Assembly (NCBI GenBank): GCA_029243385.1
Contig: JAQWSC010000008.1
Location: 171,612 to 235,611 of the forward strand
DNA length: 64,000 nucleotides
Reading direction: 5' to 3'
From: Flavobacteriaceae bacterium
GTDB taxonomy: Bacteria > Bacteroidota > Bacteroidia > Flavobacteriales > Flavobacteriaceae
Below, one piece after another: positions 1,935-49,094 of this stretch. The translations under genes were made by a program, and so were the position numbers. The notes under the pieces are model-generated. The model did no database searches. It worked only from the letters and a program-made list of their open reading frames with translations, and was not told the DNA's origin. The number at the start of each line of letters is the position of its first letter. Position 1 is the stretch's first letter.

Positions 1935-3806
1935 TTACCGCCCCATATAAACAAGCAACACACTAATGTCGCTTGGAGAAACGCCGCTAATTCGTGACGC
2001 TTGTGAGAGCGAAGTTGGCCGAATGTCTTCTAGTTTCATTCGAGCTTCTGTGGACAACGACTTTAGCTTTCGATAGTCAAAGCCGCTAGGTATTCGAATG
2101 TTTTCTAATCGATTGAGTTTGTCTGCATTGTTCTTTTCTTTCTCTATATAGCCCGCGTATTTGACCTGGATTTCTGTTTGCTCCAATACCTCTTCATCTA
2201 GGTCATGAGCCGATGTATATTCTGCTACAGCAGGAATGTGTTGAATGTCCTGCATGCTAATGTTGGGTCGTGAAAATATCTTATGAACTTTGTTTGACTG
2301 CTTCATGGGAGAAGAGTTTTTTTGAGACAAAATTGGATTTGCAATTTCTGGAGAAACGCTAAGCGACTTGAGGTGCTTTACAAAATGATCGGAGGCGTTT
2401 TTCTTGTGTTCCATGCGCCTGAGGCGTTGATCAGATGCTAACCCTAATTCATTAGAAACAGGGGTAAGCCGGAGATCAGCATTGTCTTGACGAAGAAGGG
2501 TACGATATTCAGCTCTTGAAGTAAACATTCGATAAGGCTCTTCGGTTCCTTTAGTGATCAAATCATCAATAAGAACACCGATATAGGCTTCACTTCGTTT
2601 CAGCACAAAAGGTGGTTGGTCTTTAATGAATAAATGCGCGTTCATTCCTGCCATAAGCCCTTGGGCGGCCGCTTCTTCATAGCCTGTTGTTCCATTAATT
2701 TGTCCCGCAAAAAACAAACCGTTAATGAGTTTCGTTTCCAACGAATGCTTGAGTTGTGTTGGGGGGAAATAGTCGTACTCAATTGCATAACCGGGACGAA
2801 AAAACTTCACATTCTCAAACCCTTTCACAGAGCGTAACGCTTTGAATTGGATGTCTTCAGGTAGCGATGTGGAAAATCCATTAACATACACTTCGATGGT
2901 GTTCCAGCCTTCGGGCTCAACAAAAATCTGATGTCTGTTTTTTTCGGAAAACCTATTAATTTTATCCTCAATAGATGGACAATAACGCGGCCCCACACTT
3001 TGAATACTCCCGTTGAACATAGGAGATCGATCAAAACCTTCACGGAGTAGATCGTGAACTTCTGGGCTTGTATAGGTCATGTGACAACTCCGTTGGGTTT
3101 CGAGGGGTTTAGAAGTTTCCAGATACGAGAATTTCGCCGGTTTGCTATCTCCGGGCTGCTCTTCCATAAGTGAATAATCCAAAGAGCGTCCATCAACTCT
3201 TGGAGGTGTCCCCGTTTTCATACGGCCCGAATCAAATCCAGCTGTCGCCAATTCCTCGGTAATGCCAAAGGAAGCGCTTTCCCCTGCTCGTCCGCCACCA
3301 AATTGTTTTTCACCTATATGTATCAGTCCATTTAGAAAGGTTCCGTTCGTTAAAACCACAGTCTTGGATTTGATGGTAATGCCCAATGAGGTTTTTACGC
3401 CAACCACGCGGTTTTTTTCTATAAGAAGACCAGAAACCATCTCTTGATAAAAATCCAAATTAGGAGTTCCTTCTAACATCATTCTCCACGTTTCGGCAAA
3501 GCGCATTCGATCGGACTGTGCCCGAGGACTCCACATTGCGGGTCCTTTGGATTTATTAAGCATTTTAAATTGGATGGCTGTTTGATCGGTTACAATTCCG
3601 CTATAGCCGCCTAGGGCGTCAATCTCTCGGATAATTTGCCCTTTGGCAATTCCACCCATAGCCGGATTGCAAGACATTTGGGCAATGTTTTGCAGATTCA
3701 TTGTAATAAGAAGGGTTTTACTCCCCATATTAGCGGCGGCAGCAGCGGCTTCAGAACCGGCATGACCAGCACCCACAACTATAACATCGTATTCGGACTC
3801 AAACAT
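1935..3806 (-). CDS. mnmG: tRNA uridine-5-carboxymethylaminomethyl modification enzyme MnmG (GidA)
   Basis: FAD-dependent partner of MnmE that installs the cmnm5 group on wobble U34 of tRNAs. At 623 residues it has the full family length. The N-terminal FAD-binding Rossmann motif VVGAGHAGSEAA begins near residue 10; the family signatures MSCNPAMGGIAKG and GTPPRVDGRS are present, and the C-terminal helical domain ends with the RPTSLSQASRISGVSPSDIS segment. The start overlaps the end of ybeY by 8 bases, so the two are translationally coupled. parS-like sites flank the gene. In many bacteria gidA is origin-proximal. Confidence 0.97.
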   Translation of the reverse strand: MFESEYDVIVVGAGHAGSEAAAAAANMGSKTLLITMNLQNIAQMSCNPAMGGIAKGQIIREIDALGGYSGIVTDQTAIQFKMLNKSKGPAMWSPRAQSDRMRFAETWRMMLEGTPNLDFYQEMVSGLLIEKNRVVGVKTSLGITIKSKTVVLTNGTFLNGLIHIGEKQFGGGRAGESASFGITEELATAGFDSGRMKTGTPPRVDGRSLDYSLMEEQPGDSKPAKFSYLETSKPLETQRSCHMTYTSPEVHDLLREGFDRSPMFNGSIQSVGPRYCPSIEDKINRFSEKNRHQIFVEPEGWNTIEVYVNGFSTSLPEDIQFKALRSVKGFENVKFFRPGYAIEYDYFPPTQLKHSLETKLINGLFFAGQINGTTGYEEAAAQGLMAGMNAHLFIKDQPPFVLKRSEAYIGVLIDDLITKGTEEPYRMFTSRAEYRTLLRQDNADLRLTPVSNELGLASDQRLRRMEHKKNASDHFVKHLKSLSVSPEIANPILSQKNSSPMKQSNKVHKIFSRPNISMQDIQHIPAVAEYTSAHDLDEEVLEQTEIQVKYAGYIEKEKNNADKLNRLENIRIPSGFDYRKLKSLSTEARMKLEDIRPTSLSQASRISGVSPSDISVLLVYMGR

Positions 3807-4236
3807 TGGATTTCGATTTGTGTTTCACGTGGAACAATCGGATCTTTTCTTCTTCTTTTAGGGTCATAAGTTGTTTTTCATCTTTTGATTTGTCTGAAAA
3901 ACCGCAAAAATGCAACAAGCCGTGAACCATTACTCGAAGCAACTCCTGTTCAAAAGGAACTTCATACGCCGAGGCGTTTTCACGAACCCTGTCTATGGAT
4001 ATTGCAATATCTCCTTGTAGGTTTTTTCCCACGGTGTTGTCAAATCCGATAACGTCCGTTAATGTATCATGATTAAGGAATTGGATGTTCATATCATACA
4101 ACTCCTGATCGGAAACAAATGCGTAAGTAATTTCTGAAACTTCAAAGCCCTCAGATTGAGCAACCTGAATAAGCCAACGTGAAAAGACATCTTCGGCAGT
4201 GAGCTTAAAGTCTGTACTGTAGTAGTAGTGGATCAC
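3799..4236 (-). CDS. ybeY: endoribonuclease YbeY (16S rRNA maturation)
   Basis: 145-residue metal-dependent RNase of rRNA processing and ribosome quality control (UPF0054). The zinc motif is HGLLHFCGFSD (residues 105-115): the first two histidines are canonical, and Asp115 replaces the third histidine of the usual HxxxHxxGxxH, which I recall as common in Bacteroidota. The C-terminal tail (LFHVKH, residues 134-139) is encoded by the perfect parS site, so the tail sequence may be shaped by ParB binding. First gene of the ybeY-mnmG-methyltransferase unit, with a -7 promoter element just upstream. Confidence 0.93.
   Translation of the reverse strand: MIHYYYSTDFKLTAEDVFSRWLIQVAQSEGFEVSEITYAFVSDQELYDMNIQFLNHDTLTDVIGFDNTVGKNLQGDIAISIDRVRENASAYEVPFEQELLRVMVHGLLHFCGFSDKSKDEKQLMTLKEEEKIRLFHVKHKSKSNV
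3821..3836. promoter_or_regulatory. parS ParB-binding site (perfect consensus)
   Basis: TGTTTCACGTGGAACA fits TGTTNCACGTGNAACA at all defined positions. It lies inside the last codons of ybeY, just before mnmG starts. A centromere-like site for the ParABS chromosome-segregation system is the natural reading; no parA or parB is in this window. Confidence 0.82.
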
Positions 4237-4251
4237 TTATAAAAATTTTCA

Positions 4252-4259
4252 CAAAGGTA
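4252..4259 (-). promoter_or_regulatory. promoter of the ybeY-mnmG-methyltransferase operon
   Basis: On the minus strand reads TACCTTTG, a perfect Bacteroidota -7 element (TAnnTTTG), with a TTG 21 bases upstream (4281-4283) as the -33 element. The YbeY ATG is 15 bases downstream. Confidence 0.6.
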
Positions 4260-4337
4260 CGTTTTGTAAAGCTATTTATACAAGGTGTTTGAAAAATTGG
4301 CGTTTTATAGAAAAAAATGTAGTTTTAGAAAAATAAG

Positions 4338-5390
4338 ATGGGGATGAAAGAGTTAAAATATTTGGCGGCATATACGATACCTGTTGCGGCAGGGATAGCG
4401 ATTTACTTTAAAGGAGCCTGGTCATTCGCTGGGGTGGCTTATCCCTTCATTGTAATTCCAATTTTGGAGTTGCTTCTTGGAACTAACAATGATAATTATT
4501 CGGAAACAACTATTGAGAAGCGGTCTGCAAACCCTGTATTTGACTGGATGCTTTACGGAAATATACTGTGGGTTTTTGGGTTGTTGTTTTACGGTTTTAG
4601 GGAACTTGCGAGTTCACAACTTTATGTGTTTGAAACAATCGGCTTGGTGTTGTCGTTGGGTATTTTGTTGGCAACAAACGCCATAAACGTTGCGCACGAA
4701 CTGGGCCATAGAAACAATAAAAAAGATCAATTTTTAAGCAAACTATTATTATTGCCTTGTTTGTATGTTCATTTTTTTGTTGAGCATAATTACGGACATC
4801 ATCAGAAGGTTGCCACCCCTGAAGACCCTGCATCTGCTCGCTTTAATCAAAGTGTGTATGCGTTTTATTGGCAGTCTGTATTTGGTCAATACCAAAGCGC
4901 CTGGAAGCTTCAAAAAAAACTGCTTCAAAACTCTGGAAGCCCATTTCTTTCTATCAAAAACATAGTGTTTTGGGGTGCTATTGCCCAAATAGTATACATT
5001 CTTGTGGTGTTTTATGTGTTTGGAACCTTTGTTGGTATCTTGGCTGCTGTAATAGGTGTCGTTTCTTTTTTAATGCTAGAAAGCATCAACTATATAGAAC
5101 ATTATGGATTGTTGCGAGAAAAAACAGCATCGGGTCGTTATGAAAAGACACAAGATAAACATTCGTGGAATTCAGACCATGTAATCGGTAGAGTCGTGTT
5201 ATATGAACTTACCCGACATAGCGATCATCATTTCAAAACTTCAAAAAAATATCAGGAATTGAATTATTACGATACCAGCCCGCAGCTTCCTTACGGATAT
5301 CCAACTTCTATACTGTTGGCGTTAATTCCTCCGCTTTGGTTTCGAATTGTAAACCCACATGTTCCCGAGTCCATGAAAAACAACTTTTAA
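4338..5390 (+). CDS. alkB: AlkB-like membrane non-haem di-iron hydroxylase (alkane 1-monooxygenase family)
   Basis: 350-residue integral membrane hydroxylase. The AlkB histidine boxes are present in order: HELGHR (H120, H124), EHNYGHH (H150, H154, H155) and RHSDHH (H294, H297, H298), plus the NYIEHYGL signature at 251-258 that separates AlkB from fatty-acid desaturases. Several hydrophobic helices fill residues 5-115 and 205-250. The family hydroxylates terminal carbons of alkanes or similar chains using electrons from rubredoxin. No rubredoxin or rubredoxin reductase gene is nearby, so the electron donor must be encoded elsewhere. Neighbours (ybeY, gltX) are unrelated; substrate is inferred from family only. 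Confidence 0.85.
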   Translation: MGMKELKYLAAYTIPVAAGIAIYFKGAWSFAGVAYPFIVIPILELLLGTNNDNYSETTIEKRSANPVFDWMLYGNILWVFGLLFYGFRELASSQLYVFETIGLVLSLGILLATNAINVAHELGHRNNKKDQFLSKLLLLPCLYVHFFVEHNYGHHQKVATPEDPASARFNQSVYAFYWQSVFGQYQSAWKLQKKLLQNSGSPFLSIKNIVFWGAIAQIVYILVVFYVFGTFVGILAAVIGVVSFLMLESINYIEHYGLLREKTASGRYEKTQDKHSWNSDHVIGRVVLYELTRHSDHHFKTSKKYQELNYYDTSPQLPYGYPTSILLALIPPLWFRIVNPHVPESMKNNF

Positions 5391-5413
5391 GAGTTCCAAT
5401 TCATTTTCTGGAC

Positions 5414-5421
5414 TATCTTTG
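5414..5421 (+). promoter_or_regulatory. promoter -7 element of gltX
   Basis: TATCTTTG, a perfect TAnnTTTG, 17 bases before the gltX ATG. No clear -33 TTG. Confidence 0.5.
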
Positions 5422-5438
5422 CATCATAAACAAAAACT

Positions 5439-6965
5439 ATGACTCAAGCAGTTCGTGTACGTTTTGCTCCTAGCCCTACAGGACCTCTTCATATTGGTGG
5501 GCTTAGAACCGCATTGTACAATTATTTATTTGCTAAAAAACACAACGGTGATTTTATTTTACGAATTGAAGATACCGATCAAAATCGTTTTGTTTCAGGA
5601 GCAGAAGACTATGTTGTCAATGCATTAAAATGGTGTAACATTCCTTTCGATGAAGGCCCTGGTACGGAGGATAAAAAAGGCCCCTACAAACAGAGTGAGC
5701 GAAAAGAACTTTATAAAAAAGCGGTTCGGACATTAATCCAAAAAGGGCGTGCTTACTACGCATTTGATTCGTCTGAGTCTTTGGAAAAACACCGTGTTTC
5801 TCACGAAGAAAAAGGGAAAACGTTTATATACAATTGGCACAATCGGTTAAAACTCGAAAACTCCTTGTCACTTTCAAAAGAAGAGGTACAAAAAAGAATT
5901 GATAATGGAGATCGTTATGTGATTCGGTTTTTAATGGTAGAAAACGGAGGTGTAGAAAACTTTATAAATTCAACTGATTTAATTCGAGGTACTCTTCGAG
6001 TTGATTTGAACCTATTAGACGATAAAATTTTATTCAAAAGCGATGGTATGCCCACCTATCATTTGGCAAATGTTGTGGACGATCATGCTATGGAAATTTC
6101 GCATGTCATTCGTGGTGAAGAGTGGTTGCCTTCCCTAGCGCTTCACCACCAATTGTATATCGCTTTTGAGTGGAAAACCCCTCAATTTGCACATTTACCG
6201 CTGTTGTTAAAACCAACAGGTAAAGGAAAACTTTCTAAGAGAGATGGTGATAAATTAGGGTTTCCTGTTTTTCCTTTAGACTGGCGAGATCCGGAAACAG
6301 GAAAAGTATCACCCGGCTACAAGGAAGCCGGATATGTTCCTGAAGCGGTAGTAAACTTTTTAGCGCTGTTAGGGTGGAACCCTGGTACGGAACAAGAAAT
6401 ACTAACGTTAAGCGAATTAATCGGTTTGTTTTCTATTGAACAGGTACATAAGTCGGGGGCGCGTTTTGATCCTGAAAAAAACAAATGGTTCAATCAACAA
6501 CATTTACAACATATAGAAGAATCTGTGTTGGAACAGCAATTGATAAAAGACGCTAAAGCGTTTGACATCGTTGTTTCGCCCGAAAAAGCGCAAAAGGTTG
6601 TGCGTTTGGTAAAAGAGCGCGCTTCGCTGTTAACAGAACTTTGGGGTTTGTCCTCTTATTTTTTTATGGATCCTGAGGGTTATGATGCTAAAGCAGTGCG
6701 CAAACAATGGAAAGAGGGAACACCTGAAGTTCTTACTAAATTTCTTACCTTTTTAAAGTCGGCATCCTTGTCTGAGCCAAGCAATTTTCAAGCTGAATTT
6801 AAAACATGGATTGCCGATGAATCGATATCGTTCGGACAAATCATGGCTCCACTGCGTTTGTGCCTAGTGGGAAAATTGTCCGGAGCTGATTTGTTTGAAA
6901 TTATCTGTTTTCTAGGGCACAAAACCGTAACATCTCGAATCCAAAAAGCGCTTCAGAATATTTGA
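5439..6965 (+). CDS. gltX: glutamyl-tRNA synthetase
   Basis: Charges tRNA-Glu with glutamate. 508 residues, usual for Bacteroidota GluRS. Class I signatures: HIGH equivalent PLHIGGLRT near residue 18 and KMSKS equivalent KLSKR near residue 265; the LFAKKHNGDFILRIEDTD segment is diagnostic. glnS is 1 kb downstream on the other strand, so glutamine can be charged directly by GlnS rather than through misacylated Glu-tRNA-Gln and GatCAB. Monocistronic from its own promoter. Confidence 0.97.
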   Translation: MTQAVRVRFAPSPTGPLHIGGLRTALYNYLFAKKHNGDFILRIEDTDQNRFVSGAEDYVVNALKWCNIPFDEGPGTEDKKGPYKQSERKELYKKAVRTLIQKGRAYYAFDSSESLEKHRVSHEEKGKTFIYNWHNRLKLENSLSLSKEEVQKRIDNGDRYVIRFLMVENGGVENFINSTDLIRGTLRVDLNLLDDKILFKSDGMPTYHLANVVDDHAMEISHVIRGEEWLPSLALHHQLYIAFEWKTPQFAHLPLLLKPTGKGKLSKRDGDKLGFPVFPLDWRDPETGKVSPGYKEAGYVPEAVVNFLALLGWNPGTEQEILTLSELIGLFSIEQVHKSGARFDPEKNKWFNQQHLQHIEESVLEQQLIKDAKAFDIVVSPEKAQKVVRLVKERASLLTELWGLSSYFFMDPEGYDAKAVRKQWKEGTPEVLTKFLTFLKSASLSEPSNFQAEFKTWIADESISFGQIMAPLRLCLVGKLSGADLFEIICFLGHKTVTSRIQKALQNI

Positions 6966-6977
6966 TGTATTTTTTCG

Positions 6978-6985
6978 TAACTTTG
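6978..6985 (+). promoter_or_regulatory. promoter -7 element of the SPFH gene
   Basis: TAACTTTG, a perfect TAnnTTTG, 24 bases before the ATG at 7010. No TTG at the usual -33 spacing. Confidence 0.45.
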
Positions 6986-7009
6986 AGATTCACTTAAATC
7001 CTATATTTT

Positions 7010-7939
7010 ATGAGTTTTACTTATTATGCTATCATTGCTCTTGTTGTGCTTGTTGTTATAAGCGCTTTTTTTATCGTAAAACAGCAGACAGCTGCTGTGA
7101 TTGAACGCTTTGGAAGGTTTGTGAGTGTTCGGCATTCTGGACTGCAAATCAAAATTCCAATTATTGATCGAATTGCAGGAAGATTGAGTTTAAAAATTCA
7201 ACAGCTGGATGTAATTGTTGAAACAAAAACCAAAGACGACGTATTCGTTAAACTAAAGGTTTCGGTTCAATTTAAGGTTATTAGAGATAAAGTGTACGAC
7301 GCTTTTTATAAGCTCGACTATCCGCATGACCAAATCACTTCTTATGTGTTTGATGTCGTTCGTGCAGAAGTTCCTAAAATGAAGTTAGATGATGTCTTTG
7401 AAAGAAAAGACGATATTGCTATTGCGGTTAAAACCGAGTTGAATGAAGCAATGCTTAATTACGGTTATGATATTATTAAAACGTTAGTTACCGATATTGA
7501 CCCTGATGAACAGGTTAAAAATGCCATGAACCGAATCAATGCTTCTGAACGAGAAAAGGTAGCAGCTCAATACGAAGGAGATGCTGCTCGCATTTTAATC
7601 GTAGAAAAAGCAAAAGCTGAAGCCGAGAGCAAAAGACTTCAAGGACAGGGAATAGCGGATCAACGTCGAGAAATCGCTAGAGGACTTGAGGAGTCTGTAG
7701 AGGTTTTGAACAAAGTAGGCATCAACTCTCAAGAGGCGTCTGCGTTGATTGTGGTAACCCAACACTACGACACTTTGCAGTCGATTGGGGAACACGTGAA
7801 CAGCAACCTAATCTTATTGCCTAATTCGCCTCAGGCAGGATCAGACATGCTCAACAACATGGTGGCTTCGTTTACTGCAAGTAACCAAATCGGAGAAGCA
7901 ATGAAAAAAGCTGAAAAAAAGAAAAACGGCGATAGTTAG
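7010..7939 (+). CDS. SPFH/Band 7 (stomatin-like) membrane protein
   Basis: 309 residues. A single N-terminal membrane anchor (about 5-24) is followed by an SPFH domain beginning at the QQTAAVIERFGRF segment, then an Ala/Glu/Lys-rich coiled coil (residues about 180-230, with EKAKAEAESKRLQGQG). This is the stomatin/prohibitin/QmcA type that forms oligomers at the inner membrane, often linked to protease control or membrane microdomains. No NfeD-type partner is adjacent. Its stop overlaps the glnS stop by 4 bases in convergent orientation. Function beyond the family is not determinable. Confidence 0.88.
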   Translation: MSFTYYAIIALVVLVVISAFFIVKQQTAAVIERFGRFVSVRHSGLQIKIPIIDRIAGRLSLKIQQLDVIVETKTKDDVFVKLKVSVQFKVIRDKVYDAFYKLDYPHDQITSYVFDVVRAEVPKMKLDDVFERKDDIAIAVKTELNEAMLNYGYDIIKTLVTDIDPDEQVKNAMNRINASEREKVAAQYEGDAARILIVEKAKAEAESKRLQGQGIADQRREIARGLEESVEVLNKVGINSQEASALIVVTQHYDTLQSIGEHVNSNLILLPNSPQAGSDMLNNMVASFTASNQIGEAMKKAEKKKNGDS

Positions 7940-9615
7940 TTGTTTTTCTTTGCCCAAGTGTCGCGTAATCCCACTGTTTTATTAAAAACAAGATTGCCCG
8001 GCTTGGTGTCTGGATCAGTTATGAAATATCCCAAACGTTGAAACTGGAAGTGTACTCCTGGTAAAGTGTCTTGTAAACTTGGCTCTACCCAACCTTCTTT
8101 AGTTGAAAAGGAGTCTGGATTGATATGGTCCATAAAATCAACCTCTTTATCTGCATCGGGAGATGGGTGTAAAAACAAGCGGTCGTATGAGCGGATTTCG
8201 GCTGAAATTGCGTGTTTGACTGAAACCCAATGAAGCGTTCCTTTTACTTTTCGCTGACTGGCCTCTGTACCGCTCCCGCTTTTACTTTCCTTGTCGTAGG
8301 TACAATGGATTTCTGTAATATTGCCCTCGTTGTCTTTTACAACCGATTCACCTTTAATAATATAGGCGTTTTTTAAACGCACCTCTTTATCTAAGGTAAG
8401 TCGGAAAAATTTTCGGTTTGCGGATTCTTTAAAATCTTCACGTTCGATAAACAGTTCTTTTGAAAAAGGAACTTCACGACTTCCAGCTGATGGGTCTTCG
8501 GGGTTGTTTTCTGCAATTAAAATCTCTTCGTAATTTTCTGGATAATTGATAATTACCAGTTTTATGGGGTTAACAACAGCCATAACTCGCGGTGCTTTTT
8601 TGTTTAAATCCTCACGGATACAAAACTCTAATAACGACGCATCAATTACATTTTCTCTTTTGGAAACTCCAGCAGCTTCGGCAAAGTTTCTGAGGGATTC
8701 TGGAGTGTATCCTCTTCGTCTTAAGCCCGAAATTGTTGGCATTCGTGGGTCGTCCCAACCTGTGACTACGTTAGCCTCAATCAATCGAGATAGTTTTCTT
8801 TTGCTTGTTACCGTATAGCTAAGATTGAGTCGAGCAAATTCTCGTTGTTTGGGTCGTAACAAATCCGGATTGTGTATATGATCTAAAAACCAATCGTATA
8901 AATCACGATGCGGTTTAAATTCCAAAGAGCACAATGAGTGCGTAATTTGTTCTATGTAGTCCGATTCACCATGAGTCCAGTCATACATTGGGTAAATGCA
9001 CCAAGTGTTTCCTGTTCTGTGGTGTGTTTTATGAAGAATGCGATACATAACAGGGTCTCGTAATAGCATATTGGGAGAACTCATATCAACTTTTGCTCGT
9101 AAGACGTGCGTTCCTTCTGTGTGTTTTCCTGCCTTCATCTCTGCAAACAATCGAATGTTCTCGTCTGTTGGTCGATTTCTAAACGGGCTATTTATTCCTG
9201 CTTGAGTCGGTGTGCCTTTTTGATGCGCGATATCTTCCGAAGATTGTGAATCAATATAGGCGCACCCTTTTTCTATAAGCTGTACAGCCCAATCGTAAAG
9301 TTGCTGGAAATAGTCAGAAGCATACCGCTCTTGCTCCCATTTGTATCCCAACCAATCAATGTCGTTTTTGATGGCATCGACAAATTGTTGTTCTTCTTTA
9401 GCGGGATTGGTATCATCAAATCGAAGGTTGACAGGCGCGTTGTATGTGAGACCTAAACCAAAATTAATACAGATCGCTTTTACGTGGCCTATATGAAGAA
9501 AACCGTTGGGTTCAGGGGGAAAGCGAAAACGCAATTTATCCTGAGAAAGTCCTTGGGTTAGGTCCTCATCAATAATGTGTTCTATAAAGTTTTTGGCTTT
9601 TTTTTCTTCTGACAT
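7936..9615 (-). CDS. glnS: glutaminyl-tRNA synthetase
   Basis: 559-residue class I synthetase, full length. HIGH motif GFLHIGHVKAI lies near residue 40, followed by the FDDTNP segment that is diagnostic of GlnRS; the KMSKS-like loop is TSKRKL. The C-terminal anticodon-binding beta-barrels include the HWVSVKHAI segment. glnS was acquired by bacteria from eukaryotes and is found in only some phyla, Bacteroidota among them. The gene is divergent from folB, and both have -7 elements in the shared 79-base gap. Confidence 0.97.
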   Translation of the reverse strand: MSEEKKAKNFIEHIIDEDLTQGLSQDKLRFRFPPEPNGFLHIGHVKAICINFGLGLTYNAPVNLRFDDTNPAKEEQQFVDAIKNDIDWLGYKWEQERYASDYFQQLYDWAVQLIEKGCAYIDSQSSEDIAHQKGTPTQAGINSPFRNRPTDENIRLFAEMKAGKHTEGTHVLRAKVDMSSPNMLLRDPVMYRILHKTHHRTGNTWCIYPMYDWTHGESDYIEQITHSLCSLEFKPHRDLYDWFLDHIHNPDLLRPKQREFARLNLSYTVTSKRKLSRLIEANVVTGWDDPRMPTISGLRRRGYTPESLRNFAEAAGVSKRENVIDASLLEFCIREDLNKKAPRVMAVVNPIKLVIINYPENYEEILIAENNPEDPSAGSREVPFSKELFIEREDFKESANRKFFRLTLDKEVRLKNAYIIKGESVVKDNEGNITEIHCTYDKESKSGSGTEASQRKVKGTLHWVSVKHAISAEIRSYDRLFLHPSPDADKEVDFMDHINPDSFSTKEGWVEPSLQDTLPGVHFQFQRLGYFITDPDTKPGNLVFNKTVGLRDTWAKKNN

Positions 9616-10095: not shown

Positions 10096-10166
10096 GGCAC
10101 CGTGGCCGAGTGGCTAGGCAGAGCTCTGCAAAAGCTTGTACAGCGGTTCGAATCCGCTCGGTGCCT
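10096..10166 (+). tRNA. tRNA-Cys (GCA)
   Basis: Folds as a cloverleaf: acceptor GGCACCG/CGGTGCC, D stem GCC/GGC, anticodon loop CTGCAAA with anticodon GCA on stem GAGCT/AGCTT, T arm AGCGG-TTCGAAT-CCGCT. The discriminator base is T (U73), as expected for tRNA-Cys. The CCA end is not encoded. The LysE gene on the other strand ends 2 bases after it. Confidence 0.96.
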
Positions 10167-34467: not shown

Positions 34468-35394
34468 ATGAACAAACTTTTAGTAGTAGGCACAGTAGCT
34501 TTCGATGCTATTGAAACTCCTTTCGGAAAAACAGACAAAATTTTAGGAGGAGCCGCCACTTATATTGCACTTTCAGCTTCTCATTTTGACGTCAACACGG
34601 CAATTGTCTCAGTAGTTGGAGGCGATTTCCCAGAGGAATATTTGACATTGTTAAAAAACAAAAATGTTGACATTACTGGACTGGAGGTTGTCAAAGAGGG
34701 AAAAACTTTTTTTTGGAAAGGAAAATACCACAACGACCTCAACATGAGAGACACCCTAGATACGCAATTGAACGTATTGGAAAACTTTCAACCTGTAGTG
34801 CCTGAGGCTTATACCGACTCGGATATTGTAATGTTAGGAAATCTTCATCCGGCGGTTCAATTGAGTGTATTGGAGCAATTGACTGAAAAACCCAAAATGA
34901 TTGTCCTTGACACGATGAATTTTTGGATGGAACACGCATGGGATTTATTACTTGAAGTGATTAAGAAAGTAAATGTTATTACAATCAACGACGAAGAAGC
35001 CCGGCAACTTACAGGAGAACATTCTTTGGTAAAAGCCGCTCAAAAGATTGCTACAATGGGTCCAGAGTATGTTGTTATCAAAAAGGGAGAGCACGGCGCA
35101 TTGTTGTTTCATGGCAACCAAATTTTTTCTGCCCCAGCCCTTCCACTCGAAGAAGTTTTTGACCCCACTGGAGCTGGAGACACTTTTGCAGGAGGATTTG
35201 TTGGATTTGTTGCCCAATCAGGAAACATATCTTTTGAGAATCTTAAAAGTGCTGTAATCTATGGGTCTGCATTGGCTTCTTTTTGTGTCGAAAAATTTGG
35301 AACAGAACGAATGGAAAGCCTTGAGAGCAATTCGTTGACAAGCCGATTGCAACAATTTCAGGAGCTTACTCATTACGACATCTTATTGAAATAA
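34468..35394 (+). CDS. PfkB family carbohydrate kinase
   Basis: 308 residues of the ribokinase/PfkB fold. The anion-hole and catalytic Asp motif is DPTGAGDTFAGGF near residue 232; N-terminal strands include LGGAATYIALSA. Substrate could be a sugar or nucleoside and cannot be fixed from sequence. A TATCTTCG sequence 11 bases upstream may be a weak -7 element, so it can be transcribed alone or with purN-rnhA. Confidence 0.88.
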   Translation: MNKLLVVGTVAFDAIETPFGKTDKILGGAATYIALSASHFDVNTAIVSVVGGDFPEEYLTLLKNKNVDITGLEVVKEGKTFFWKGKYHNDLNMRDTLDTQLNVLENFQPVVPEAYTDSDIVMLGNLHPAVQLSVLEQLTEKPKMIVLDTMNFWMEHAWDLLLEVIKKVNVITINDEEARQLTGEHSLVKAAQKIATMGPEYVVIKKGEHGALLFHGNQIFSAPALPLEEVFDPTGAGDTFAGGFVGFVAQSGNISFENLKSAVIYGSALASFCVEKFGTERMESLESNSLTSRLQQFQELTHYDILLK

Positions 35395-45971: not shown

Positions 45972-46048
45972 GGTCCTATAGCTCAGTTGGTTAGAGTAGC
46001 TGACTCATAATCAGTTGGTCCCTGGTTCGAGCCCAGGTGGGACCACCA
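45972..46048 (+). tRNA. tRNA with CAU anticodon (Met elongator, or Ile2)
   Basis: Cloverleaf with acceptor GGTCCTA/TGGGACC, anticodon stem GCTGA/TCAGT around loop CTCATAA (anticodon CAT), T arm CCTGG-TTCGAGC-CCAGG, discriminator A and an encoded CCA. Elongator Met and lysidine-modified Ile2 share this anticodon; acceptor and arm details do not settle which. It is not initiator-like, since the first pair is G-C. An AT-rich gene block begins 100 bases after it. Confidence 0.95.
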
Positions 46049-46050
46049 AC

Positions 46051-46081
46051 AAACCCTCTAAGTCCTTGACTATGAGGGTTT
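46051..46081 (+). terminator. terminator of the tRNA
   Basis: AAACCCTC pairs with GAGGGTTT across a 15-base loop, followed by TTGTTTTT. Its outer sequence resembles the terminator at 49013-49045 at the far side of the AT-rich block. Confidence 0.75.
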
Positions 46082-46151
46082 TTGTTTTTATTGATTTAAT
46101 TGTCGAACAAATGGCATATATTTATGTCACAAATAATCAAAAAAATATCAA

Positions 46152-46427
46152 ATGGAAGATAATCTTATGTTTTTTGGAATAATAGGGATATTATTTCTTT
46201 ATTCAGTTGTTCATTACATAATAATTTCTTTTTCTAAAACATGGACTCAAAGAACAGGTTATGAAAAAGTTGTGACAGTTACTGGAATAGTTGTAATAAC
46301 CTTAATTTTTAAACACAATGTTTCCAAGTTAAATCAAATAAACAGACTTACGGAAAATCTTAAAATAGTTGAGTGGTTAAAATCTCATTATACTATTCAC
46401 AACATTTTTTTTATTATAATTAAATAA
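46152..46427 (+). CDS. hypothetical small membrane protein, first gene of the AT-rich block
   Basis: 91 residues, not recognised. Two hydrophobic helices: about residues 5-27 (LMFFGIIGILFLYSVVHYIIISF) and 40-55 (VVTVTGIVVITLIF), joined by a basic loop (SKTWTQRTGYEK). The C-terminal third (KLNQINRLTENLKIVEWL) is amphipathic. Base composition is far more AT-rich than galE or the AddB gene. 10 bases before the TerB-like gene on the same strand, so probably in one operon. Confidence 0.6.
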   Translation: MEDNLMFFGIIGILFLYSVVHYIIISFSKTWTQRTGYEKVVTVTGIVVITLIFKHNVSKLNQINRLTENLKIVEWLKSHYTIHNIFFIIIK

Positions 46428-46437
46428 AATATTTAAA

Positions 46438-47442
46438 ATGAATCAACAACTAGTCAATTTCATTGAACTATGTCTAATGGATGGAATTATAACTGATAAA
46501 GAAAGAGAAGTAATTTTTCGAAAATCAAAGGAATTTGGAGTTCCTGATGATGAATGTGAAATTATTTTGGAAGGGATGATTTCACAACAGAATTTATCGA
46601 ATTTAGATCAAAAACCAGATAAAGTCGAAAAGGACAAACCAAAAAAAAGTAATAGTTATAAACGAAGAAAAGTTCCAGAATTACAATTAATTAATCTTAA
46701 CAACAGCCAAAAGTTAAAAGAAGAACAAAAATCATTAAAAGAAGAGAATGATAGTTTATTAAATGAAAACAATAAATTAAATAAAGAGATCTCGGACAAT
46801 ATCAAGCTGATTGAAGATAATTCCATGAACTATCTTAATTCACTAAAGTTTAATGACAAAGTCTTAGACGGATTTGTTGTAAGCGATATAATTGAAGACA
46901 TAGACGAGATTGACTTGTATAAAGAAGAAAAAGGGACTGTAACTTGGGATTTACAGAAAAACACAACCAACCATATAGAACCTGTTTTACCTCATCCTTT
47001 TTTTGTTATTTATAACTATGTTGAAACAAGTTTTTTCAAGAAATACGATATTAACTATGGAGTTGATAGAGGAAAATATATAGAACAAGGAGGGATTTTA
47101 AATACGCCAATTTTTTCAAGAAAGGTAAATTTTGAATACAATATAGGGTATCAACGAACATCCATAATTCCTGAAAAATATAATGGAGCAAATCCTTTAA
47201 AAATAATCATTTCAGAAAAAAACAAAACGAAATTAGTTATCTACATATTCAAGGATGATTTCTTTGTTATCGAATTAAAATATTCAGTTAGTTTTAAAAA
47301 TTCAGACTTAAGAACGTGGGGAGATTTAGGAGGAAAAATGATAGGATATAACTCTAATGATCATGGTAATTACTATTGGTATTCTGTCACAAGAGTTGAA
47401 CATTTTATACACACTAATCTTTTAAAAATATTAAACATATGA
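46438..47442 (+). CDS. hypothetical protein with N-terminal TerB-like motif and coiled coil
   Basis: 334 residues. Residues 5-47 (IELCLMDGIITDKERE followed by KEFGVPDDECEIILE) fit the short TerB-like helical motif [A/C]xxDGxIxxxE...Gixxdexexil common in Bacteroidota and linked to stress or conflict systems. Then come a Lys-rich linker (58-78), a coiled coil (about 88-128, LKEEQKSLKEENDSLL), and a C-terminal globular domain of about 180 residues rich in Tyr, Phe and Asp that I do not recognise. No catalytic motif is evident. It overlaps the next gene by 4 bases (ATGA), showing translational coupling. Confidence 0.65.
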   Translation: MNQQLVNFIELCLMDGIITDKEREVIFRKSKEFGVPDDECEIILEGMISQQNLSNLDQKPDKVEKDKPKKSNSYKRRKVPELQLINLNNSQKLKEEQKSLKEENDSLLNENNKLNKEISDNIKLIEDNSMNYLNSLKFNDKVLDGFVVSDIIEDIDEIDLYKEEKGTVTWDLQKNTTNHIEPVLPHPFFVIYNYVETSFFKKYDINYGVDRGKYIEQGGILNTPIFSRKVNFEYNIGYQRTSIIPEKYNGANPLKIIISEKNKTKLVIYIFKDDFFVIELKYSVSFKNSDLRTWGDLGGKMIGYNSNDHGNYYWYSVTRVEHFIHTNLLKILNI

Positions 47443-48089
47443 AGGACCTTATAGAAGTTAGGAACGAGATTTTACAAAAAAGGAAAAAAGTTGAAGTGCA
47501 TTTAAAAAAAGTTGAAGACAACAAAAAATCCATAAAACTTAAATTAAAATCAATCAATTTGGAAAAGGTTTTAAACAGTTTCCCTTCTAGGGGAATAGGT
47601 TCAATTATTTCTTACAATAAACTTAATGAGAAATACGATGTTTATGACACATTTCAATTTAATAAGATTATCAGATACGTTGTTTTTATCGAAAATCTTG
47701 AAAATGAATATTTCAATTTAGTTAAAAATTCAAAAAACGAATATATTTCCAATCCTGATTCAAAGTTGTTTGAAAAATTAATAAACAAGTACAATTTTTT
47801 GTCTTTGAATTATCAGTTATTAAAGATATTAACTGATGAAGTTGAAGGAGATAAATTGTTGTTTAATAAAGTATTTAATGAATTAGAGGATCAAGGAATG
47901 TTTTTAAGTAAAGTAGAAACGTTTAATATGGAAACCTTTAAATCAATTAACAATTCTTTGGGGAGTGTGGTTAATTTGTTGGGTAATGTAAATGACAACA
48001 TTACCAGTCTTTCTGTTGATGTAATGACCACAAATGACTATTTGAGCGATATAAATTCAACTCTTTGGAACCTAGAAACTAAAAACTAA
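47439..48089 (+). CDS. hypothetical coiled-coil protein of the AT-rich block
   Basis: 216 residues, not recognised. The N-terminal 45 residues are strongly basic and helical (KKVEVHLKKVEDNKKSIK). The middle is Asn/Tyr/Phe-rich and helical. The last 50 residues (NNSLGSVVNLLGNVNDNITSL onward) have a regular hydrophobic heptad-like pattern, suggesting oligomerisation. No membrane helix or signal peptide. Translationally coupled to the TerB-like gene (4-base overlap) and followed after 4 bases by a second TerB-like gene. Confidence 0.6.
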   Translation: MKDLIEVRNEILQKRKKVEVHLKKVEDNKKSIKLKLKSINLEKVLNSFPSRGIGSIISYNKLNEKYDVYDTFQFNKIIRYVVFIENLENEYFNLVKNSKNEYISNPDSKLFEKLINKYNFLSLNYQLLKILTDEVEGDKLLFNKVFNELEDQGMFLSKVETFNMETFKSINNSLGSVVNLLGNVNDNITSLSVDVMTTNDYLSDINSTLWNLETKN

Positions 48090-48093
48090 AAAC

Positions 48094-48504
48094 ATGAAAG
48101 AAAAATTAGAAAAATTAATAAAACTATCTCTTGATAAAGAGAAAGATTGGGAAGAAATAGAAAAAGCGGTTTTAAAAAAAGCGACTTTATTGGGAATATC
48201 TGATGAAGATTGTAAATTGATTCTTGAGAACAACAAACCCAAACCTCCTCCAATTGAGGATATAAAATCTGAAAATCAAATTGAAAATTTAAAATCCGAA
48301 AACTCTATTGAAGACACTATTAATTCTGTTAAAGGAAAACTTAACTCTTTATTGAAAGAATCACAAGAAAAAATAACCGATAAAAATAAATCCAAAATCC
48401 CTCTCAATAAAAACATTAAAATAATTCTAGGAGTCTTGTTTTATCCTTATGGGGTGTATCTATTGTATTTATGGTTTAAGAAAAATAAGAAAACAAAAAG
48501 TTAA
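48094..48504 (+). CDS. hypothetical TerB-like membrane-anchored protein
   Basis: 136 residues. Residues 5-45 (EKLIKLSLDKEKDWEEIEK, then LLGISDEDCKLILE) align with the N-terminal motif of the 334-residue protein two genes upstream: the same Lys/Glu helix, then G(I/V)xD(E/D)(D/E)C(K/E)(L/I)ILE. The DGxIT turn is replaced by DKEKDW. A Lys/Glu-rich linker follows, then one C-terminal helix (about 108-127, IILGVLFYPYGVYLLYLWF) and a basic tail. So it may recruit a soluble partner to the membrane. Function unknown. Confidence 0.6.
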   Translation: MKEKLEKLIKLSLDKEKDWEEIEKAVLKKATLLGISDEDCKLILENNKPKPPPIEDIKSENQIENLKSENSIEDTINSVKGKLNSLLKESQEKITDKNKSKIPLNKNIKIILGVLFYPYGVYLLYLWFKKNKKTKS

Positions 48505-48516
48505 GGGTGTAAAAAA

Positions 48517-48918
48517 ATGAACCTCCTAAGAGAACTGTTAAACCAGACAATAAAAGTTCATTTTTCCAAGAGTAAATTTAACATATTCGGTAAACTTGAA
48601 TGGTATCCACCCACCGAAAAAGAAATAAAGAAAACATTCGAAAAAAGAGGGATTAAGATATCCCAACAAAGAGTTAGGTATTTCAAAACAGATGAATTTG
48701 AAATTAATTCTGAAGTGAATTCATCTGTTTTTTATCAGTTATTAATCAGTCAAATAGAAGAGGATGGAATCTTTTATTGTGTTTCTGATCATAAATCAAT
48801 GGGTAATGTGGGACAAAAAATAAGATATAAATTTCAAATAAAAAACTTTCAAAAATCAACAAACCCCTTTGACTATAAGATTGAATTATTAGAGGAAGAG
48901 ATGATTATGACTCGATAA
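48517..48918 (+). CDS. hypothetical protein, last gene of the AT-rich block
   Basis: 133 residues, not recognised. No membrane helix or signal peptide. Predicted mixed alpha/beta: an N-terminal helix (LLRELLNQTIKVHF), a basic segment (EKEIKKTFEKRGIKISQQRVR), then beta strands with conserved-looking aromatic residues. The C-terminus is acidic (ELLEEEM). 12 bases after the membrane-anchored TerB-like gene. About 90 bases after its stop lies a decayed tRNA 3' end. Confidence 0.55.
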   Translation: MNLLRELLNQTIKVHFSKSKFNIFGKLEWYPPTEKEIKKTFEKRGIKISQQRVRYFKTDEFEINSEVNSSVFYQLLISQIEEDGIFYCVSDHKSMGNVGQKIRYKFQIKNFQKSTNPFDYKIELLEEEMIMTR

Positions 48919-48982
48919 GTTAGTTGTCGCTCTTTGAGTGTCAATTTGGGTTTAACACATAAACAATCAACTACATAGCACG

Positions 48983-49013
48983 ATGGCTCTAGCTAGGCGG
49001 GGCCACCAACAAA
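48983..49013 (+). repeat. decayed tRNA 3'-end copy (candidate attachment site)
   Basis: GGCGGGGCCACCAACAAA (48996-49013) matches GGTGGGACCACCAACAAA at the 3' end of the tRNA (46036-46053) at 16 of 18 positions, including the CCA and the bases after it. Upstream the match fades: only a TCTAGC-like T-loop remains and no cloverleaf can be drawn. The two copies bracket the five-gene block, the arrangement left by insertion at a tRNA 3' end or by tRNA duplication and decay. Confidence 0.6.
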
Positions 49014-49045
49014 AACCCTTAACCCCCATAGTTGGTTAAGGGTTT
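49013..49045 (+). terminator. terminator at the right edge of the AT-rich block
   Basis: AAACCCTTAACC pairs with GGTTAAGGGTTT (12 bp) over a 9-base loop. Same AACAAA...CCCT...GGGTTT framework as the tRNA terminator at 46051-46081, so the duplication includes the terminator. Confidence 0.8.
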
Positions 49046-49094
49046 GTTATATCCATAAGACTTACCGATTTAAGAGAATTTTAAACAATAACCG

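Follow-up and report, generated by a model that had tools for sequence, protein, structure and literature searches.

The window, that is the whole 64,000-nucleotide stretch that was analysed, comes from the genome of a Flavobacteriaceae bacterium (1.69 Mb, 99% complete). Five open reading frames lie on its plus strand between 46152 and 48918, downstream of a tRNA-Met gene, and the flanking genes, for an AddB-like protein, galE and aconitase, have housekeeping functions. The features of the locus are as follows.

45972-46048, plus strand: tRNA-Met (CAT), found with ARAGORN; the proposed insertion target, its 3' end being the left core copy
46035-46053, plus strand: left (proximal) core repeat AGGTGGGACCACCAACAAA, a direct repeat made of the tRNA 3' end and 5 further bases
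46049-46090, plus strand: proximal terminator, common to the mini-inserts of two other genomes, G280 and G081
46098-46112, plus strand: TAATTGTCGAACAAA, apparent remnant of a CGAACC-type repeat, by comparison with G280 (locus L184), where the repeat follows the terminator
46152-46427, plus strand: ORF1, 91 aa, two membrane segments, chimeric
46438-47442, plus strand: ORF2, 334 aa, TerB-like N-terminus, coiled-coil-like helix and a C-terminal part of no assigned family
47439-48089, plus strand: ORF3, 216 aa, orphan, overlapping ORF2 by 4 bases
48094-48504, plus strand: ORF4, 136 aa, similar to ORF2 at the N-terminus and with a membrane segment at the C-terminus
48517-48918, plus strand: ORF5, 133 aa, orphan
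48984-49019, plus strand: right (distal) repeat of the tRNA-Met 3' end, degenerate and including the beginning of the terminator, from a gapped alignment
49015-49046, plus strand: distal terminator, similar to the one that follows tRNA-Met in the sister species G043

The initial annotation had described five tightly packed same-strand genes, and both the reading frames and their spacing (10, -4, 4 and 12 bases in order) were recovered. The lengths are beyond chance: the longest random reading frame in 500 first-order Markov sequences of the same make-up was at most 151 aa, compared with 334 and 216 aa here. The codon-position composition is gene-like, with the G+C maximum at position 1 in all five frames. 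The overlap and short gaps from ORF2 to ORF5 are as in co-translated genes. The AT-richness noted beside the tRNA also held: the block has 26.7% G+C as against 38.3% for the whole window (0.25-0.29 per kb in the block, about 0.39 in its surroundings), and a maximal-score scan gave 46079-48891 as the best AT-rich segment of the entire window.

None of the five proteins had been recognised, and none reached a curated cut-off in Pfam or NCBIfam; matches in PADLOC and PHROGs were weak and partial, and no usable match came from family libraries, PDB sequences or Foldseek. Hydropathy analysis placed membrane segments at residues 3-29 and 40-58 of protein 1 and at 108-128 of protein 4, in line with the helices originally proposed for them, and the coiled coil of protein 2 was seen in a structure model as a coiled-coil-like helix at 80-135. 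Both models made were poor, except for the N-terminus and the coiled coil in protein 2. In this protein, helices were predicted at 3-15, 20-32 and 37-56, with pLDDT block means of 79-92 up to residue 50 and low confidence past the helix at 80-135.

A TerB-like motif had been claimed for both proteins 2 and 4. Residues 1-48 of protein 2 matched flavobacterial reading frames of 145-180 aa (E 0.003-0.008 per genome), one of which is a Pfam TerB protein (E 3e-8), and the first 45 or so residues aligned with the N-terminal half of TerB-family proteins from flavobacteria. The link of protein 2 to TerB is thus weak but present. The N-terminus of protein 4 is similar to that of protein 2 (pairwise E 1e-4) but has no counterpart of its DG-ITD segment. 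Neither protein gave a score with Pfam TerB (PF05099) or met its gathering threshold, so "TerB-like" is used here as a description and not as a statement of membership.

A direct-repeat search found the tRNA end at 46035-46053 again at 48995-49013, and a gapped alignment lengthened this distal repeat to 36 nt, covering T-arm, acceptor end and terminator start. It scored 19 in the alignment, whereas 66 control stretches from the window gave no more than 13 and 300 shuffles no more than 14. A degenerate second copy of the tRNA 3' end is therefore present on the far side of the block. Each core copy is followed by a terminator of its own, and the limits of the AT-rich segment nearly coincide with the two copies. 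If DNA integrates into a tRNA 3' end, the tRNA should be restored and the old end displaced. The tRNA-Met sequence is identical in sister species G043, whose terminator is closer to the distal terminator of the window (score 14.5, reached by none of 500 shuffles) than to the proximal terminator (8.0, reached by 7 of 500); the distal terminator is presumed to be the original one, displaced. The G043 contig ends 118 bases past tRNA-Met and so shows no empty site, its galE has a different upstream neighbour, and the galE neighbourhoods of 80 relatives held nothing informative on the site. No strong hairpin was found at the right end of the block, which folds weakly. A tRNA-Cys at 10096, also near AT-rich DNA, was considered as a similar site and rejected, having no second copy downstream and ordinary genes adjoining.

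The left end has close relatives in G280 and G081, which belong to two other genera. From tRNA-Met through the terminator the window is identical to them at 137 of 142 and 118 of 119 positions, respectively (97-99%), and the 40-nt proximal terminator scored 37-40 out of 40 in these genomes, against 5-21 at 35 other tRNA-Met genes from 35 further genomes. In both, the terminator belongs to mini-inserts (694, 746 and 1150 bases) ending in the same tRNA core. The single insert of G081 (L183, 8839-9640) carries a DUF1569-like gene, and the second tRNA end there lies 694 bases downstream. In G280 two inserts stand in tandem (L184, 8361-10420; tRNA ends at 746 and 1896 bases), one carrying a GNAT acetyltransferase gene and the other a DUF1569-like and a weakly VanZ-like gene. 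The DUF1569 cassettes of G081 and G280 agree at 95% of positions over 594 nt, although in the 19 kb around them just two matches were found, both short, weak and not collinear.

On the right, these mini-inserts resemble one another over 164-219 nt (74-83%), a stretch that is capable of folding into long, imperfect hairpins (GGTTCG/CGAACC) and finishes with the tRNA core. Beyond this core, the right end of the window block showed no similarity to them, and so common ancestry is established for the left end only. The CGAACC repeats of the mini-inserts sit where an integrase-bearing island in a further genome, G007, has its end motif. One remnant of them is seen in the window, TAATTGTCGAACAAA at 46098-46112, which is possibly an integrase arm site. 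Two further motif scans gave no matches, and viral contigs that matched the core motif were set aside as apparently unrelated, being G+C-rich and without tRNAs. A literature search of partial coverage, and hence weak as evidence, found no description of such cassettes.

Other arrangements were seen downstream of tRNA-Met. In G010 (L221) the gene at 6825-6899 on the minus strand is followed by two identical tandem units of 406 bp, each made of a terminator, a gene for a 96-aa GIY-YIG nuclease and a copy of about 37 nt of the tRNA 3' part, making a unit at this tRNA whose single cargo gene encodes a nuclease. In G019 (L204) and G008 (L162) a second tRNA-end copy lies 82-92 bases after tRNA-Met with no gene between, possibly as the scar of such an element.

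No integrase or fragment of one was found in the window block, using the ORF list, family libraries and a PF00589 search. The source genome has four PF00589 matches, all on other contigs: two full-length proteins, which we take to be Xer-like, one short C-terminal fragment and a 221-aa tyrosine recombinase (L124, contig 1 of G000, 34696-35178) that adjoins a tRNA-Leu and seems to lack its N-terminal part. Integrases do occur at the same tRNA elsewhere. A 6.7 kb island in G007 (L190, about 2076-8756) encodes a full integrase with arm-binding, SAM-like and catalytic domains, a replication protein, an HTH protein and an OLD-like AAA/TOPRIM ATPase. The motif GGGGACGA occurs in it twice, at both ends, a placement like that of integrase arm sites. 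A 24 kb island in G020 (L181/L182, contig 51, 3259-27318) runs from tRNA-Met to an exact 64-nt partial copy and has an integrase; SusC/SusD-like and sulfatase-like proteins, recognised on reading the sequences, make it look like a polysaccharide-use island. Taken together, the mini-inserts and the integrase-bearing islands show that tRNA-Met is a recurrent insertion target and make it plausible that the block moved in trans, by the recombinase of another element.

Among the five reading frames, clear relatives were found for ORF1 only. In its N-terminal part it corresponds to a membrane protein of 57 aa that is free-standing in G294 (62% over 37 aa), and the C-terminal part is what is left, in frame, of the DUF1569-like gene of the mini-inserts (88-91% DNA identity over 77 nt). 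On these alignments ORF1 is a chimera of two genes, and its make-up records a fusion or deletion inside an island of this kind. Searches at family, order or phylum level, each covering about 300-400 genomes, gave no relatives of ORF2-ORF5, and neither did plasmids, phages or viral contigs, the collections searched differing from protein to protein; weak matches of proteins 2, 3 and 5 were dropped as chance, being short, of low identity or inside long unrelated reading frames. Both halves of ORF1 occur in other genomes without genes 2-5. This argues against a five-gene unit and weakens the original proposal of a single system of sensor, adaptor and membrane parts; of that interpretation, the foreign, AT-rich, tRNA-adjacent and operon-like block with a TerB-like N-terminus still stands.

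The paired tRNA ends, the matching AT limits and the shared left terminator lead us to read the block as, probably, an integrase-less mobile element of about 2.96 kb inserted at the 3' end of tRNA-Met. That it is mobile cargo at a tRNA, with no integrase, is well supported. On the left, the incoming DNA would have brought a terminator of its own and a 3' end to replace that of the tRNA; the original 3' end, with its terminator, would have moved to the right, and the displaced tRNA end would then have decayed there. As the block has no integrase, it would have been integrated in trans by the tyrosine recombinase of another element using this tRNA, or its integrase gene has since been lost. It could instead be what deletions have left of a larger integrase-bearing island, rather than a mini-element that had no integrase from the start. 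We regard this as a reasonable possibility, if not one to expect: islands of 6.7 and 24 kb with integrases use the same tRNA, the right core is degenerate and ORF1 is a product of deletion or fusion, but mini-inserts of 0.7-1.2 kb, which are complete although they have no integrase, share the left end, and the block holds no trace of such a gene. A tandem duplication of tRNA-Met with decay of one copy, the AT-rich genes being native and no mobile element involved, would explain why the distal similarity spans both T-arm and acceptor end and why each copy has its own terminator. It is nevertheless very improbable, as the distal copy is the 3' part of the tRNA only, the G+C content falls just between the copies, the proximal terminator is that of inserts in other genera and the searches made found none of the block genes in the sister species.

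The cargo of the proposed element would be the orphan ORF2-ORF5 behind the chimeric ORF1, conferring an accessory trait. Our most likely guess, drawn from weak domain similarity, is that the proteins form a small membrane-linked complex: proteins 2 and 4 would make contacts through their TerB-like N-termini, protein 4 would serve as the anchor in the membrane, and the working domain would be the C-terminal portion of protein 2. It is rather doubtful that this cargo acts against phage. More broadly, ORF2-ORF5, with or without ORF1, might be an undescribed anti-phage or stress-response system in which a TerB-like protein senses or bridges and a membrane protein acts. This is compatible with a mobile island and we consider it possible but somewhat unlikely. 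The tight operon layout with its 4-base overlap and the TerB-like N-termini would suit such a system; against it, no PADLOC model was matched over most of its length, the family libraries revealed no recognisable nuclease, NTPase or other effector in the block, the ORF list showed no known defence gene among its immediate neighbours and ORF1 is chimeric. A defence role of the block is thus possible and unsupported, except circumstantially by the OLD-like ATPase on the G007 island at the same tRNA.

More tentatively, tRNA-Met in Flavobacteriaceae may be a dock for a family of minimal cassettes that stack in tandem and cross between genera by means of a recombinase supplied in trans, in an integron-like manner, the window block being a partly decayed member with an orphan TerB-like operon. 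Such cassettes would be of 0.7-3 kb with 1-5 genes, no integrase, their own terminator on the left and a tRNA end on the right. This suggestion, based on comparison of three genomes, deserves a survey. Inserts of few genes with no integrase are easily missed by island finders and may carry orphan genes among small-genome bacteria. The shared left end, the 95%-identical cassette in two genera and the tandem stacking on one tRNA make the question of the recombinase testable, and also that of whether orphan operons are regular cargo. As for the orphan operon, it is no more than a candidate for functional tests.

Among known systems, Flavobacteriales have integrative elements and genomic islands at the 3' ends of tRNA genes. 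One of them, ICECleSHZ29, is also inserted at the 3' end of a tRNA-Met-CAT gene and flanked by direct repeats of that end (PMC12561888). It is 75 kb long with an integrase and perfect 17-bp repeats, whereas the window block has 2.96 kb, no integrase and a degenerate right repeat; the repeat sequences also differ, so the tRNA-Met gene used is evidently another one. Tycheposons, described for Prochlorococcus and with tRNA-Met examples in Methylophilaceae (PMC10872708), are likewise tRNA-anchored cargo in genomes of aquatic bacteria, but they span 4-200 kb and have a tyrosine recombinase, so that the block, at its size and with no recombinase, falls outside them. Protein 2 compares with the TerB family (PF05099) over about half a domain, followed by unrelated regions. 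The inserts of G280 and G081 resemble integron cassettes in being small gene-plus-site units, in tandem at a fixed anchor and with palindromic right ends. They differ in that the anchor is a tRNA gene, and no integron integrase was seen beside tRNA-Met in the ORF lists of the window, G081 or G280; the window block, with no attC-like palindrome at its right end and no integron integrase with attI, is not an integron cassette. Having no integrase of its own, the block is classed as integrase-less and not as an autonomous element, and it shares with tRNA-targeted islands the anchor at a tRNA 3' end, the far copy of that end and a distinct composition between the two.
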